A stretch of 64,000 nucleotides of DNA from Heyndrickxia coagulans 36D1. GTDB lineage: Bacteria > Bacillota > Bacilli > Bacillales > Bacillaceae_C. Below are positions 11,929-56,493 of this stretch, piece after piece (position 1 is the stretch's first letter; every line of letters begins with the position of its first letter). The position numbers and the translations under genes were made by a program. The notes under the pieces were generated by a model. The model was not told the DNA's origin. It did not search any database and saw only the letters and a program-made list of their open reading frames with translations. The DNA lies in contig NC_016023.1 of NCBI RefSeq assembly GCF_000169195.2, forward strand, positions 3,410,001-3,474,000. Reading direction: 5' to 3'.

Positions 11929-11973
11929 ATAAAAGCGGCGGGACAAACCAGGTGGGTTCCCGCCGCTTTTTTG
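11929..11973 (-). terminator. Terminator of rarD
   Basis: A 12-13-bp GC-rich stem (AAAAGCGGCGGGA at about 11931-11943 with 11959-11970) has a T-rich flank on both strands. It lies about 50 nt past the rarD stop. Confidence 0.8.
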
Positions 11974-39576: not shown

Positions 39577-39618
39577 AAAAGCGGCGGGTCACAGTTGATG
39601 TGTTCCCGCCGCTTTTAT
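39577..39618 (+). terminator. Terminator of yidC
   Basis: AAAAGCGGCGGG (39577-39588) pairs with CCCGCCGCTTTT (39605-39616), extended inside by CACA with TGTG. The flanks suit both strands, and it also lies after the convergent rok stop. Confidence 0.85.
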
Positions 39619-49575: not shown

Positions 49576-50838
49576 ATGGATCATTTGACAACGAACACAC
49601 CTTTATCCGATAAAAACAATGAAATCCATCAAAAAAGATGGGCGATTGTTGCATTATCGTCCATTCCCCTGATTATGACACTGGGGAATTCAATGTTGAT
49701 TCCGGTCCTTCCCCTCATGGAGGACAAACTGAGCATCAGCAAAGTCCAATCCAGCTATATTATCACCTTTTATTCAATTGTCGCCATTTTCCTTATTCCG
49801 GTTGCCGGATTTTTATCGGACAGATACGGCCGAAAAATGGTCATTATCCCGTCACTTGCGATTACGGCTATAGGAGGGGCGATTTCGGCATACGCGGCCT
49901 GGCAACTTGATCACCCGTATTCCCTTATTTTGATCGGCCGGACTTTGCAGGGCGTTGGGACGGCCGGCGCAGCACCGATCGTTTTGCCGCTTGTCGGTGA
50001 TATGTTACACCGCAACCGGGATGTGAGCACCACCCTCGGCATTATTGAAACGGCCAATACGTTTGGAAAAGTATTGAGCCCGATTCTCGGATCCTTCTTG
50101 GCAGGATTGATCTGGTTTTTGCCTTTTGCGGCCATCCCTGTCTTTTGCCTGATCTCTATCCTGTCTGTTTTGTTTCTTGTCAAAAGGCCGGCACACGAAA
50201 AACAGGGGCCGGGAATCAAAGCATTTATAGGGAATACGAAAAAGGTGTTCCGAAAGCACTGGCGCTGGCTGTCGGCCGTATTTGCGATCGGGGCCATCGT
50301 GATGTTTATTTTGTTTGCGGTGCTGTTTTATTTGTCGTCCAATCTGGAAGACCAATACGGCTACCATGGCGTGAAGAAAGGGTTTATTTTGGCCGTCCCG
50401 CTTGCGGCATTGTGCCTTTCTTCCTTTATAACCGGGAAAATCATTAAAGAAAACATGGTACTGATGAAATGGATTATTTTCTCCAGCGTGCTCATTACCG
50501 GAGCCTCCGTGCTCGTGATCACTTTTTCGGACCGTTTTTTCTATTTAATAGGGACCTTTCTCATTTGCGGAATTGGAATCGGCGCCTCCCTTACGCCTTT
50601 GGATGCGCTGATTAATCAGTCGATTGAAAAAGAAGTCCGCGGAACGATCAGCGCCATTTACAGTTCTATGCGCTACATCGGCGTGGCGGCAGGTCCGTTA
50701 TTTATGGCCAATTTTATGAAAGGGCGGGTTGAGATCAGCATGGTGATCATGGCCGGTTTCTGCCTGGTGGCGGCAGGACTTACATTTGTGGCGGTGAAAC
50801 CGGACAAATCACGCGCCGAAGCCTCTTCCCCTGCCTAA
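49576..50838 (+). CDS. MFS drug/siderophore exporter (YmfD-like, DHA1)
   Basis: This 420-aa protein has about 12 membrane helices. The MFS motif A is in GFLSDRYGRKMVIIP, and motif C-type glycines are in GKVLSPILGSFLAG, which points to an exporter of the DHA1 class. It resembles B. subtilis YmfD (bacillibactin efflux), but no siderophore genes are in the window. The ATG at 49576 has AAAGGAA about 12 nt upstream. It is divergent from the two-component pair. Confidence 0.85.
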   Translation: MDHLTTNTPLSDKNNEIHQKRWAIVALSSIPLIMTLGNSMLIPVLPLMEDKLSISKVQSSYIITFYSIVAIFLIPVAGFLSDRYGRKMVIIPSLAITAIGGAISAYAAWQLDHPYSLILIGRTLQGVGTAGAAPIVLPLVGDMLHRNRDVSTTLGIIETANTFGKVLSPILGSFLAGLIWFLPFAAIPVFCLISILSVLFLVKRPAHEKQGPGIKAFIGNTKKVFRKHWRWLSAVFAIGAIVMFILFAVLFYLSSNLEDQYGYHGVKKGFILAVPLAALCLSSFITGKIIKENMVLMKWIIFSSVLITGASVLVITFSDRFFYLIGTFLICGIGIGASLTPLDALINQSIEKEVRGTISAIYSSMRYIGVAAGPLFMANFMKGRVEISMVIMAGFCLVAAGLTFVAVKPDKSRAEASSPA

Positions 50839-50928: not shown

Positions 50929-52998
50929 TTGGCTGAAAACAGACGATTCAATCGGTTAATCCATGAAAAATCGCCTTATTTGCTGCAGCACGCCCGTAAT
51001 CCGGTTGACTGGTATCCGTGGAGTGAAGACGCTTTTGCGAAAGCGAAGCAGGAAAACAAACCGGTTTTTGTTTCCATCGGCTATTCGACTTGCCACTGGT
51101 GCCATGTGATGGAACGAGAGTCTTTTGAAAACGAAGAGGTAGCCCGGATCTTGAATGAGAAATTCGTGGCGATTAAGGTTGACAGGGAAGAGCGGCCGGA
51201 TATTGATGCCATCTATATGCTTGTTTGCCAAATGATGACTGGACAGGGCGGCTGGCCGTTGAGTGTATTTTTGACGCCTGAAAAGGTCCCTTTTTATGCC
51301 GGCACCTATTTTCCGCGGGAAAGCCGGTATGGGATGCCCGGTTTTAAAGAAGTGTTGCTTTATTTATCGCAGCAGTATACCGAAAATCCGGACCGTATCA
51401 AGGATGTAGGGGTACAAGTCAAACAGGCGCTCGAGGCAAGCCGGGAAAAAGGGAAACAAACGGCTTTAACAAAAGAAACGATCGGGCGCGCTTTCCAAGC
51501 TTACAAACAAGGTTTTGATCCCCGCTACGGCGGTTTTGGAAAGGCGCCGAAATTTCCAATGCCGCATTCACTCGTATTTTTACTGATGTATGCCAAATTT
51601 TATGAAAACCGGGATGCGCTTGCGATGGCAACCAAAACATTGGACGGGCTGGCGCGCGGGGGGATTTATGACCATATTGGTTACGGTTTTTCCCGCTATT
51701 CCGTTGATGAAAAATTTTTGGTGCCACATTTTGAAAAAATGCTTTATGACAATGCGCTGCTTGTGCTGGCCTATACCGATGCTTTCCGGATGACGAAAAA
51801 TGCCCAGTACAAAAAAATAACGGAAGAAATCATCACGTATGTGCTGCGTGATATGGCCCATCCGGATGGCGGGTTCTATTCCGCGGAAGATGCCGACTCA
51901 GAAGGTAAGGAAGGAAAGTTTTATGTGTGGACGCCTGCAGAAGTAAAAGATGTGCTGGGGGAACAGTTGGGCACGCTCTTTTGCCAGGCATACGGCATTA
52001 CCGGGCAGGGAAATTTCGAAGGAAAAAATATCCCGAACCAGATTACAACGCATTTAGAATCAATTGCAAAAAAAGAAGGGATTTCTCCCGCGGCGCTCGC
52101 AGAAAAATTAGAAACGGCACGGCAAAGCTTGTTTCAACACCGGGAAAAGCGGGTACGCCCGTTCCGCGATGATAAAATTTTAACGGCATGGAACGGCTTA
52201 ATGATTGCAGCGCTCGCAAAAGCAGGGCGTGTTTTTCATCAACCATCCTATGTGCAGGCTGCAGAAAAAGCGGTTTCTTTTATCAGGGACAACTTGATTC
52301 AAAATGACCGTGTAATGGTGAGATACCGCGATGGCGAAGTAAAAAATAAAGGTTTTATAGACGAATATGCCTTTCTCCTGTGGGGATATATGGAACTGTA
52401 CGAATCCACTTTTGCCCCTTTTTATTTGGCGGAAGCAAAAAAACTGGCCGGCAATATGATCGATTTATTTTGGGATGGTCATGGAGGAGGCTTTTTCTTT
52501 AGCGGAAACGACGATGAACCATTGCTCGTCAGGCAAAAGGAGTCTTATGACGGGGCACTACCTTCCGGGAACAGTGTTGCAGCCTGCCAGTTGTTAAGGC
52601 TTTCGAAACTGACTGGGGATTTTACGTTGGAAGAAAAAGTCCAGCAATTGTTTCAGGTCTTCAGCAAGGATATCCATGATGAACCCACTGCCCACGCCAT
52701 GATGCTGCAGGCAGGGATGCACGCACAGCAGGCAACAAAAGAAGTCGTGATCGTGATGGATGATGAAACAAAAGAAGTTGTTGATTTCATTAACCATATA
52801 CAGAAGAACTTCTACCCTGGCATTTCCGTCATGGTGGTAAAAAGGCGTGAACAGGCGAAACTTTCCAAAATCGCTTCCTTTATTGAAGATTATGCCATGA
52901 TAAACGGACAACCAACCATTTATGTCTGTGAAAACTTCAGCTGCAATCAACCGACAAATGATTTTCAAACTGCCATGGATTTGCTCTTTAAAAAATGA
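50929..52998 (+). CDS. Thioredoxin-fold / DUF255 protein (YyaL, SSP411 family)
   Basis: This 689-aa protein has an N-terminal thioredoxin-like DUF255 domain (about 5-165, with Cys55 and Cys58 in STCHWCHVM), then a long alpha/alpha barrel like that of N-acylglucosamine epimerases. It is the family of B. subtilis YyaL and human SPATA20, whose reaction is unknown. The start is TTG at 50929 behind AAGGAGGG. It is monocistronic and ends at a clear terminator. Confidence 0.92.
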
Positions 52999-53007
52999 TT
53001 TATGCAT

Positions 53008-53032
53008 GGAAGGTGGATGCCTTCCTTTTTTT
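53008..53032 (+). terminator. Terminator of the yyaL-like gene
   Basis: GGAAGG (53008-53013) pairs with CCTTCC (53020-53025), and TTTTTTT follows. Confidence 0.75.
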
Positions 53033-53190
53033 ATTACATACGGGGAGCAGAAAATGAACAGTTGCCCGGAACTATGATGATGCTCTGTTTGCTTTGCTAG
53101 GATAATCCCTTTTTGAAATACGCACCATTTTCTGATTGCCGTTAAATCTATCTTCTTGCATTTTCCATTCATCTTCTTTCTTCCAATTTT

Positions 53191-53236
53191 TTATATCAAA
53201 AAAACATGTTTACACATTATAAATTTTTGATATAAT
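53191..53236 (+). promoter_or_regulatory. Promoter of the VOC gene with a 12-bp inverted repeat
   Basis: TTTACA (53209-53214) and an extended -10, TGATATAAT (53228-53236), form a strong promoter with 16-bp spacing. The perfect inverted repeat TTATATCAAAAA (53191-53202) and TTTTTGATATAA (53224-53235) brackets the -35 and overlaps the -10, with AACATGTT between. It looks like an operator. Confidence 0.65.
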
Positions 53237-53269
53237 AAAAGCGACCAAACCTATGAAGGAGGCAATATC

Positions 53270-53623
53270 ATGTTTACGAGTGCGAATGTAACAGTTACGG
53301 TAGCGGATTTAAAAAAAACCGTTCAATTTTACACCGAAACCCTTGGATTGAAGCTGCAGGGCGAAATGGACGATCATTTTGTACAGATCGAAGCACCGGG
53401 ATTGACGATTGGGCTCCTGCATCTTACCGGAGAGCGGAATGCCCAATCGGCAAAATCAGAAAGCATGTCGATTGGATTTGTGGTGCAGGATTTAGAGGCA
53501 GCCATCAAGACATTGAAATCCCATGGTGTTAAATTCCATGATTATGTTGAAGGGAAGGCAGCCCAGGTCGTACACTTCAATGACCCTGACGGCAATACCC
53601 TTTACTTAGTATCTGATCATTAA
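53270..53623 (+). CDS. VOC family (glyoxalase/dioxygenase fold) protein
   Basis: This 117-aa protein has two beta-alpha-beta-beta-beta modules of the vicinal oxygen chelate fold (ANVTVTVADLKKTVQFYTE at the start, HFNDPDGNTLYLV at the end). The first metal ligand, usually His near residue 5, is not present (VTVTV), so metal binding may be altered. Function could be resistance, isomerisation or none of these. The ATG at 53270 follows GAAGGAGG. The strong promoter and bracketing inverted repeat suggest tight regulation, perhaps by a neighbour such as the PadR protein. Confidence 0.85.
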   Translation: MFTSANVTVTVADLKKTVQFYTETLGLKLQGEMDDHFVQIEAPGLTIGLLHLTGERNAQSAKSESMSIGFVVQDLEAAIKTLKSHGVKFHDYVEGKAAQVVHFNDPDGNTLYLVSDH

Positions 53624-53810
53624 AAAAGAGGCGGCTTTCAAATGTCATCCATGCCAACTTGGCAGCCGCCAGACAGGTTAAGCGGAATCCCGGCGCTTCC
53701 CGCTGCACCATCTTCCCACAATTATATGGCGAGAGTCTGTTTGTTGGATATTCATGGTTCAGCATCCCTTGTTCCATAAAAAGGCAGTTAGACGGAAAGG
53801 AGACGTTCGC

Positions 53811-54380
53811 TTGAACGAATTGTTCATACTTGGCGAATTGATGAACAACCCGATGCACGGCTATTTGCTGCATCAAATTTTGAACGCAATTGTGGGCCCC
53901 ACACGAAAAATCAGCTGGGGGGCGCTTTATCCACTCATTCACAGCATGCTTGCAGACGGTCTGATCGAGCAGGTCCCCGAAGAACAACCGGAGGGCGCTC
54001 GGCGGGGAAAAGGAAAAAAGAAAAAGATTTACAAACTTACAGATGAAGGTAGAATCCGGTTTTTCCGGCTGATGGAAGAACCGATTCCATACTCACCGGA
54101 TTATGAACTGCATTTTTATATGAAGCTGAAAAATTTTGGTCTGGTCAGTGAGGAAGTGCAGTTTTTAATTTTGCATCAATATAAAGATTACTTGCGTTAT
54201 GAAATCCGCCATGAGGAAGAACGGTTGGTTTATGCGGGAGGGGATAAACGGATTCCCAAGGAAGAACAGCAGTATATCCTGACCTTTTTCCGGCACCGGT
54301 TAGAAAAGCTCCGTTTTGACGAAAAGTGGGTATTACAATTAATCCATCAACATCGTGAGAATAGACAAGGGCTTGAATAA
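53811..54380 (+). CDS. PadR family transcriptional regulator
   Basis: This 189-aa protein has the PadR winged helix at the N-terminus (LFILGELMNNPMHGYLLHQIL, then WGALYPLIHSMLADGLIEQV and KKIYKLTDEGR) and a C-terminal helical dimerisation part. PadR proteins repress stress or drug-efflux genes and often themselves. The TTG at 53811 lies 8 nt after AAAGGAG; the frame is open from 53754 but without an SD. It could control the VOC gene just upstream; this is inference. Confidence 0.88.
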   Translation: MNELFILGELMNNPMHGYLLHQILNAIVGPTRKISWGALYPLIHSMLADGLIEQVPEEQPEGARRGKGKKKKIYKLTDEGRIRFFRLMEEPIPYSPDYELHFYMKLKNFGLVSEEVQFLILHQYKDYLRYEIRHEEERLVYAGGDKRIPKEEQQYILTFFRHRLEKLRFDEKWVLQLIHQHRENRQGLE

Positions 54381-54467
54381 AGTGTGAAAACGGAAAGCTG
54401 GACATACTTGTGCAAACCCATAAGAAATCCGGAATGATGCATTCACAATATTCTTTTTGCACGGCAC

Positions 54468-54507
54468 AACAAACAACCCCCGGTTGATTCACCGGGGGTT
54501 GTTTGTT
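54468..54507. terminator. Bidirectional terminator between padR-type gene and ltaS
   Basis: A perfect 17-bp stem (54468-54484 with 54491-54507) with a six-base loop carries a TTTTATTT tail on the + strand. It starts right after the ltaS stop. Confidence 0.92.
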
Positions 54508-56493
54508 TTATTTATTCTTTTTGGCTGAATCCGGAATGGAGGTTTCAGGCAACCCACTCATATCCGTCTGGTCAAAGGAATAATCGTACTTGTTCCGGTT
54601 CACCGGCGTAAAACCTTTTGGTGTGTAGAAACGGAGCAGGTCGTCGTACACCACTTTATCAGACAGATTCAGCATCTCTTTTGCAATCTTTTCATCATTT
54701 TTGCCAAGTTTTGGATTGACTTTTTCACCGGTCGCATTGTCGTAAAGCGTTCCGGATACTTGCGTGAACTTATTGGTGACAAAATCGCCGTTACGGAACG
54801 GAACGACTTGGCGATGCTGGCTGGACAAAAGATCAGACCCGAACTGGATGTAGTCTTTTGTATCAACGCCAAGCAAATGCATCACCGTCGGCATTACATC
54901 GACTTCACCGCCGTACGTATGCTTGATCCCGCCTTTTACGCCCGGAACATGGATAAACAGCGGCACCCTTTGCAGCTGCGCGTTCAAATATGGCGTAATT
55001 TCAGGGACACCGAGCACTTTCGCCATTGCCGCATTGTGATTTTCCGAAATGCCGTAATGGTCGCCGTACATGACAATCACGGTATGGTCATAAAGCCCGG
55101 ATTCCTTCAAATAGGTAAAGAACTGCTGCATCGCTTCATCCAGATAATGGGCGGTTTGGAAATAGTTATCAACGGTTTTATCACCGAAATTGCCTTTCGG
55201 GAAGTCAGCATCCTCTTCATCCAATGGAAACGGGAAGTGGTTTGAAAGCGTAATAAACTTCGTATAGAAAGGCTGCGGCAATTTGGTCAAATACTGCATC
55301 GATTCATTAAACCAAGGTTTGTCCTTCATCCCGTAGTTTAACGTATTTTTGTCGCTCATATCGTAATACTTGGCGTCAAAGAAACGGTCATAGCCGAACG
55401 ATTTGTACATTTCGTCACGGTTCCAGAAAGTCTTATAGTTTCCGTGGAAAACAGCCGATGTATAGCCTTTCTGGCCAAGAATGGCAGGTGCTGCCTGGTA
55501 CGTATTTTGTGCTTTCGTCGTAAATACAGACCCCGTCGGCAGCGGGAACAGCGAGTTTTCCATCATAAATTCGGCATCAGACGTTTTCCCCTGGCCTGTC
55601 TGGTGGAAAAAGTTATCGAAATAAAAGGTGTTTTTATCCTTTGTCAGCGAGTTTAAAAACGGTGTGACTTCTTTGCCGTCCAATTTGTAATTGATCAAAA
55701 AGTTCTGGAACGACTCAAGTGAAACGTAAATGACATTCATACCCTTTGCCGCGCCGAAATATTTGCTGTCCGGCTCGGTATAGTTCGCTTTCACATAGTT
55801 TTCCACATCGCTCACGTCACTGCTGTCAGCCATCGCCCGCTGTGCAGACGATTTTGTTGTCTGGATCGCATCATAAAGCGTGTAATTGTACATACCGAGA
55901 TATTTCACGATATAGCTACGGTCAAAAGTCCGCGTTAAAAGCTGCGGGCGGTCCGCTTCGGCAAGCCCGAGATTAAAAATGAAAAATGCAATCGCGGCAA
56001 TCATCAGCCCGGCAAGCGAGCGGCGGTTGATTTTCCCTGCGTTGGCCCTGACGGTTTTCGTTGCAATCAAGGCAATGAGGATGATCGTATCAAAAAAGTA
56101 AAAAATATCATAAGGCTTCATTAATGCAGCTGCACTCCCGCCGAGGTCGCCGAAGTTTTTCGTCTGCGACAAAACCGGCAGCGTAATGAAGTCATTGAAG
56201 AAACGGTAATAGCATACATTCGCGTACAGCAAAACAGACAAAAGCACGTCAATCACAGTCATTGCAATGATCCGGCCGCGTCCCTTAAAGAAAAGCGCAA
56301 GCGCAAAGAAGAACAGTGCCGAGCTGATGGGATTGATGGCAAGCAAAAATTTCTGCATGCCGTTTTGCAGATCCAGATTGAATTCCGCTTTATAGACAAT
56401 ATAAGTTTTTACCCAGAACAATAAAACCATGAGAAAGTACAGGGCGTATTTTTTATTTAGCAAACTTTTAATCTGGTTAAACGAGATCTTCAT
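54508..56493 (-). CDS. ltaS: Lipoteichoic acid synthase family protein
   Basis: LtaS polymerises glycerol phosphate from phosphatidylglycerol onto a glycolipid anchor outside the membrane. The 661-aa protein has five N-terminal membrane helices and an extracellular sulfatase-like domain. The metal site has Glu260 (YVSLESFQ) and nucleophile Thr304 (TGQGKTSDAE), with later metal residues in MYGDHYG. An AMA-D site near residue 222 could be cut by signal peptidase, as in S. aureus LtaS. The ATG at 56493 follows GGGAGGG. Bacillus has several paralogues; this full-length one fits LtaS best. Confidence 0.92.
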   Translation of the reverse strand: MKISFNQIKSLLNKKYALYFLMVLLFWVKTYIVYKAEFNLDLQNGMQKFLLAINPISSALFFFALALFFKGRGRIIAMTVIDVLLSVLLYANVCYYRFFNDFITLPVLSQTKNFGDLGGSAAALMKPYDIFYFFDTIILIALIATKTVRANAGKINRRSLAGLMIAAIAFFIFNLGLAEADRPQLLTRTFDRSYIVKYLGMYNYTLYDAIQTTKSSAQRAMADSSDVSDVENYVKANYTEPDSKYFGAAKGMNVIYVSLESFQNFLINYKLDGKEVTPFLNSLTKDKNTFYFDNFFHQTGQGKTSDAEFMMENSLFPLPTGSVFTTKAQNTYQAAPAILGQKGYTSAVFHGNYKTFWNRDEMYKSFGYDRFFDAKYYDMSDKNTLNYGMKDKPWFNESMQYLTKLPQPFYTKFITLSNHFPFPLDEEDADFPKGNFGDKTVDNYFQTAHYLDEAMQQFFTYLKESGLYDHTVIVMYGDHYGISENHNAAMAKVLGVPEITPYLNAQLQRVPLFIHVPGVKGGIKHTYGGEVDVMPTVMHLLGVDTKDYIQFGSDLLSSQHRQVVPFRNGDFVTNKFTQVSGTLYDNATGEKVNPKLGKNDEKIAKEMLNLSDKVVYDDLLRFYTPKGFTPVNRNKYDYSFDQTDMSGLPETSIPDSAKKNK

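Follow-up and report, generated by a model that had tools for sequence, protein, structure and literature searches.

A bipartite inverted repeat at a VOC gene promoter of Heyndrickxia coagulans 36D1 as the probable operator of a neighbouring PadR-type regulator

In Heyndrickxia coagulans 36D1, a perfect inverted repeat is wrapped around the promoter of a gene for a small VOC-family protein, and a gene for a PadR-type regulator follows a short distance downstream. This arrangement raises the question of whether the repeat is an operator and, if so, whether the neighbouring PadR acts from it. We addressed the question in the window (the whole 64,000-nt stretch analysed here, positions 3,410,001 to 3,474,000 of contig NC_016023.1) and in related loci and genomes. 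The comparisons make it very probable that the PadR encoded 187 nt 3' of the VOC gene uses the repeat as its operator and represses VOC from there. A survey of titles and opening lines of abstracts, largely without subscription papers, returned no description that we recognised of an operator-VOC-padR cassette.

The repeat and the promoter that it encloses

The VOC gene (53270..53623, + strand) encodes a protein of 117 aa of the glyoxalase/bleomycin-resistance family (Pfam PF00903, E 2.9e-15) and is preceded by a ribosome-binding site, AAGGAGG, recognised by inspection of the sequence (53256..53262, + strand). A repeat search placed the left arm of the putative operator, TTATATCAAAAA, at 53191..53202 and the right arm, TTTTTGATATAA, at 53224..53235 (both + strand). 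The perfect 12-bp inverted repeat reported by the first-pass annotation is therefore real, with 21 bp between the arms; an extended version covers 16 nt at 94%. Between and across the arms lies a sigma-A-type promoter, TTTACA-16 bp-TG-A-TATAAT (53209..53236, + strand), which matches 11/12 consensus positions, although in this region such matches by themselves are no more frequent than chance predicts (3 observed versus 3.3 expected). The -35 hexamer TTTACA occupies 53209-53214, the -10 hexamer TATAAT 53231-53236 and the extended -10, TG-A-TATAAT, 53228-53236, with a spacer of 16 bp. These positions bear out the further claim that the arms bracket the -35, the left arm lying 5' of it, and overlap the extended -10. 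The regulator gene, placed about 190 bp downstream of the VOC gene by the same annotation, was found 187 nt away, counted from the VOC stop (53623) to the TTG start codon of padR (53811). Only a weak 9/12 promoter match (53513-53542) lies between the two genes, and a terminator with a 17-bp perfect stem follows padR (54468..54507, + strand); a similar hairpin is visible in the sister species G002.

A perfect inverted repeat of at least 12 bp with a 3-60 nt loop occurred in 0.35% of 2000 dinucleotide shuffles of 53000-53269, and in 0.1% of shuffles when the test was run on 53150-53269. The whole window holds 10 such repeats, whereas 20 shuffles held 0.4 on average; each of the remaining nine is less A+T-rich than the one at the VOC promoter. 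On the shuffles, together with the conservation described below, we rejected a chance origin. An RNA element was also rejected: 52000-55000 gave no Rfam match at the gathering score, and the arms lie 5' of the transcription start, which is expected near 53243. Elsewhere in the window, the terminator-like inverted repeats at 11931-11970 and 39577-39616, 27 kb apart, have the arm AAAAGCGGCGGG in common.

A search for further copies, as the first-pass annotation had proposed, found the exact repeat only at the VOC promoter in the 3.55-Mb genome. The 14-base arm pattern with up to 2 mismatches occurred at 11 other places, close to the 7 obtained with a reversed control. With no second exact site and a count of this size, we rejected a genome-wide regulon.

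Conservation of the site and its association with padR

Relatives came from a VOC protein scan of one genome collection, which gave 62 loci (8 at 49-77% identity), and from searches of whole genomes. Three loci whose contigs equalled others in length were excluded as duplicates: L032 of L116 (also by equal upstream sequence), L106 of L034 and L110 of L036. This left 15 distinct relatives with a close padR, namely L113 (G040), L116 (G013), L114 (G029), L115 (G025), L033, L034, L035, L036, L107, L108, L109, L111, L112, L037 and L038. Their PadR proteins are 70-88% identical to that of the window. VOC identity is 49-79% in 15 aligned sequences, a set that includes L039 and leaves out L038, whose VOC is 60% identical over 97 residues with the match starting only at residue 19. 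The extrapolated start of this VOC (L038:4947-5291) falls within the 3' end of a glycosyltransferase reading frame, and the gene may be altered. The L032 record is titled Bacillus subtilis DE0224, yet the matching genome, G013, falls within the window's own family; the species name on the record may be doubtful.

The idea that the repeat belongs to this PadR is upheld by sequence comparison. The site is kept in 15 of the 15 relatives; even its weakest versions, in L037 and L112, match 35/52 motif positions, compared with 31/52 for the highest-scoring unrelated position across these loci. In 13 relatives it starts 79-81 bp ahead of the VOC start codon. The other two, L037 (Paenibacillus ehimensis) and L038 (P. 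doosanensis), have the gene order padR, macrolide-family glycosyltransferase, VOC, and here the site begins 80-81 bp before padR, which heads the operon, and not before VOC. Where the VOC gene occurs apart from this regulator, the site was not found: L039 (VOC 49% identical) lacks it, and its 10.3-kb locus contains no padR at E<=1e-3; 79 loci near distant VOC relatives (608 kb) yielded neither a site at <=2 mismatches nor, at E<=1e-5, a padR-like protein.

We also scanned 40 genomes (11 with and 29 without padR) chosen by hand from the earlier padR search results, a set that does not include the genomes of L033, L035, L037 and L038. A site with <=1 mismatch was present at the cassette in 10 of the 11 padR-bearing genomes and nowhere else in those 11; the eleventh, G681, has a cassette site with 2 mismatches. 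None of the 29 padR-less genomes, four congeners included, contained a site at <=1 mismatch. Scattered 2-mismatch matches occurred in 13 of these 29 and in several of the 11. Because the motif was built from the positive loci, a match there is obtained by construction and only the absence elsewhere informs. This confinement to the cassette makes it likely that the regulon is local. In L033 and L112, an extra copy of the promoter begins 79-80 bp before padR with the right half kept and the left arm not (L033:6864-6923, + strand; L112 6433-6492 on the reverse complement), hinting at separate autoregulation of padR as a candidate. These copies are unbound unless the left half can sometimes be dispensed with.

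Among the 16 operators, the left arm (first 8 bp) has a mean pairwise identity of 0.84, compared with 0.29 in the flank just outside; the corresponding values are 0.90 for the -10 block and 0.71 for the -35. As reference values, the base composition of the arm block predicts 0.45, and 0.64 was obtained for third positions within the first 30 VOC codons (14 sequences). The left arm is not a promoter hexamer and yet is conserved about as well as the hexamers. TATATCA and TGATATA are separated by 29 bp in 15 of the 16 operators and by 30 bp, owing to one extra base, in L038. The C occupies the same arm position in all 15 operators counted and visibly in the 16th too, also where TATAAC replaces TATATC (L035, L037 and L112). 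Left-right dyad complementarity is 0.85 over 10 bp, above the 99th percentile of 0.79 for shuffled columns. A tighter second dyad around the -10 and the right arm, TTATTATA-N9-TATAATAA, reaches 0.90 over 8 bp versus 0.83, although it is in part the -10 hexamer itself. Since the 16 operators share descent, neither the identity nor the dyad scores count independent events. A stretch 3' of the -10, AAAAGCGACCAAAC (53237..53250, + strand; mostly AAAANCGATCAAAC in relatives), has a mean pairwise identity of 0.69. It is conserved beyond the promoter and contains ATCAAA, which resembles the left arm; it may function as an additional, third half-site or as a leader element.

Operator architecture and competing readings

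The padR gene (53811..54380, + strand) encodes 189 aa from its TTG start, with a match to the PadR winged-helix domain (Pfam PF03551, E 1.7e-12) of 47.6 bits against a gathering cut-off of 27. Its nearest solved relative by sequence is 8jxk, titled Rv0047c (E 2.6e-16). The predicted structure, a model of middling confidence (mean pLDDT 70.7; residues 1-11 and 60-67 below 50), also matches B. subtilis PadR-DNA complexes (5x11) at 16-18% identity. Y18 and Y40 are invariant in 16/16 PadR sequences; on our reading of the motifs, they equate with Y20 and Y42 of B. subtilis PadR, the two DNA-binding tyrosines given as the PadR signature in the available part of one report (PMC6457526).

How would such a protein occupy the repeat? 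The recognition helices of cdPadR1 are ~34 Å apart, which fits half-sites ~10 bp apart (PMC5050560, available part). The arm centres of the repeat are 36 bp apart, beyond the reach of one PadR winged-helix dimer, which makes two dimer sites likelier. The operator would then probably consist of two dimer sites that are about mirror images of one another. For the family, the available part of another report describes an ATGT/ACAT inverted repeat with 8-10 nt spacing (PMC3506622); the window holds only ATGT-N4-ACAT, which is not conserved in relatives.

The constancy of the arms bears directly on a simpler account, in which an A+T-rich UP element is all there is to the left arm and an extended -10 all there is to the right, the symmetry being incidental. 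The left arm does sit about where UP elements lie, in a region of 25% G+C (53150-53260), and the padR-proximal promoters of L033 and L112 do without a good left arm. An UP element, however, would explain neither the fixed C of TATATC/TATAAC in all 16 operators and the near-constant 29-bp spacing, nor the complementarity above shuffled columns and the co-occurrence with padR, and we consider this account improbable.

That the repeat is the operator of a different, host-encoded regulator is very improbable: the site accompanies the cassette across several families and two orders, was not found at <=1 mismatch in the 29 padR-less genomes including the four congeners, and stands before padR, not VOC, in L037 and L038. 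The point in favour of another regulator is that the motif is unlike the ATGT/ACAT of PadR proteins in the available parts of two reports (PMC3506622, PMC5050560). PadR as an activator acting from this site is hardly to be expected, given that the right arm overlaps the -10 and that a promoter so near consensus (11/12 plus TG) should need no activator, even though precedents exist in AphA (1yg2), titled an activator, and in PrhP, a PadR relative presented as a positive regulator in the available part of its report (PMC6804342). Repression by the adjacent PadR is thus the reading that we favour.

Set against known systems, this would be a locally acting repressor circuit of a familiar type whose PadR operator is non-canonical. 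PadR of B. subtilis (PadR subfamily 1) is the phenolic-acid repressor of padC. The window's PadR resembles it in the winged helix with signature tyrosines, in a C-terminal helical domain of similar length (5x11, PadR with operator DNA) and in a detoxification-type target; it differs in sequence (the 16-18% identity noted above) and in half-sites, where TATATC/GATATA, with centres 36 bp apart, stands here in place of ATGT/ACAT. Two PadR-s2 drug sensors, LmrR of Lactococcus lactis and LftR of Listeria, are likewise PadR regulators at drug-defence genes, but they have ~100-110 residues, whereas the 189-residue protein of the window stands beside VOC, with a pump or glycosyltransferase only in relatives. 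Similar in layout is cdPadR1 of Clostridioides difficile, with an A+T-rich promoter carrying two inverted-repeat boxes and more than one dimer per promoter (PMC5050560, available part); however, its half-sites are TACT/AGTA and 200 genomic sites are predicted, compared with one exact site in the window's genome. The unusual points here are the half-site, the bipartite span and the position before whichever gene heads the operon. Tentatively, and with less confidence than in the operator itself, we suggest a distinct class of PadR operator: a two-dimer bipartite palindrome (TATATC-N29-GATATA type) around the -35 and -10 that travels with promoter and leader as a portable unit, beginning at a constant ~80 bp before the operon's first gene, inside a small, horizontally spread drug-defence cassette with an efflux pump or glycosyltransferase as further effector.

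An acquired cassette and its possible role

The cassette with its site occurs in several families and two orders, and its distribution is patchy. At E<=1e-60, padR was found in 4/34 genomes of the window's family and 4/397 of its order (the window counted in both), in 7/394 of the family of G081 and in 1/2 of the family of G040. At E<=1e-25, VOC was found in 1/398 genomes spread over the phylum, which is the window itself. In the sister species G002, the alignment to the window runs as far as 53000 (92%) and resumes at 54402 (95%). In G002, 4 bases separate the two blocks, which makes a segment of ~1.4 kb carrying operator, VOC and padR (53001..54401) extra in the window. In G003 and G004, a sulfatase gene stands beside the same upstream gene and the cassette is absent; in G001, the sulfatase gene was not found within a 5-kb locus. 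Four congeners have no VOC (E<=1e-3) and no padR (E<=1e-60). The empty site in the sister species and the patchy distribution elsewhere make gain in the window's lineage likelier than repeated loss, and the circuit looks like an acquired unit. A terminator-like hairpin at 53008-53035, 3' of a thioredoxin-domain gene, lies inside the extra segment and may have arrived with it. A plasmid origin was rejected: 13 plasmid records match padR, all below 60% identity, and the best full-length match is 35%.

Between VOC and padR, 9 of the 15 relatives encode a protein of 464-465 aa, and the two of these nine that were scanned are both DHA2/EmrB-type pumps (TIGR00711 above cut-off). Two relatives have a macrolide-family glycosyltransferase with padR and VOC (TIGR01426 above cut-off). 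Thus, one or the other is added in 11 of the 15, and the remaining 4 have neither between VOC and padR, as in the window. These partners suggest that the cassette guards against a natural product. An MFS gene of the window (49576-50835) was rejected as counterpart of the relatives' pump, since matches are just 21-25% identical; the protein of this genome that comes nearest to the pump is 45% identical and located elsewhere. In L108, L109, L111 and L115, an exporter-like protein and a ~200-aa protein appear to be common 5' of the cassette, an impression from the sequences that suggests a larger shared island.

The VOC model (mean pLDDT 82.7) has a fold resembling VOC proteins of integron cassettes, the fosfomycin-resistance type (FosA) and the antibiotic-binding TnmS1, TnmS2 and ZbmA; in a profile search, TnmS1 ranked third among the six matches at E<=1e-7. 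FosA and the antibiotic-binding VOC proteins, among them the S. verticillus bleomycin determinant, are similar in fold and size but just 13-26% identical to the window's VOC, in which the glyoxalase I metal-ligand positions appear to be replaced. The VOC metalloenzymes glyoxalase I and FosA have His/His/Glu as metal ligands. By eye, we aligned what we take to be the metal ligands of E. coli GlxI (H5, H74 and E122) with N6, S67 and Y112; N6 and Y112 are invariant and S67 nearly so in 16 VOC sequences. This alignment speaks against a metalloenzyme of that kind, and a role in binding rather than catalysis is likely. Fold and profile similarity would be consistent with antibiotic binding without turnover, of the bleomycin-resistance kind.

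From these comparisons we infer PadR binding, repression, two-dimer occupancy, autoregulation, an inducer and a drug function, which may be combined as follows. Two PadR dimers, one on each half of the operator in a symmetrical arrangement, would cover the -35 and extended -10, keep RNA polymerase off the promoter and so repress VOC; padR itself would probably be repressed too, through read-through from the VOC promoter. A toxic small molecule would bind PadR and release it from the operator, upon which the VOC protein would sequester (or modify) the compound, helped in relatives by the DHA2 efflux pump or the macrolide-family glycosyltransferase.

The locus thus offers a candidate regulator-operator pair, with one exact genomic site, for a PadR subgroup whose half-site is unlike ATGT/ACAT. 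With the pair so well defined, the inducer, and hence the compound that the cassette may guard against, could be screened for with a reporter. It would also be a clean example of a regulated promoter that precedes VOC in some genomes and padR in others, at an equal distance from the start codon.
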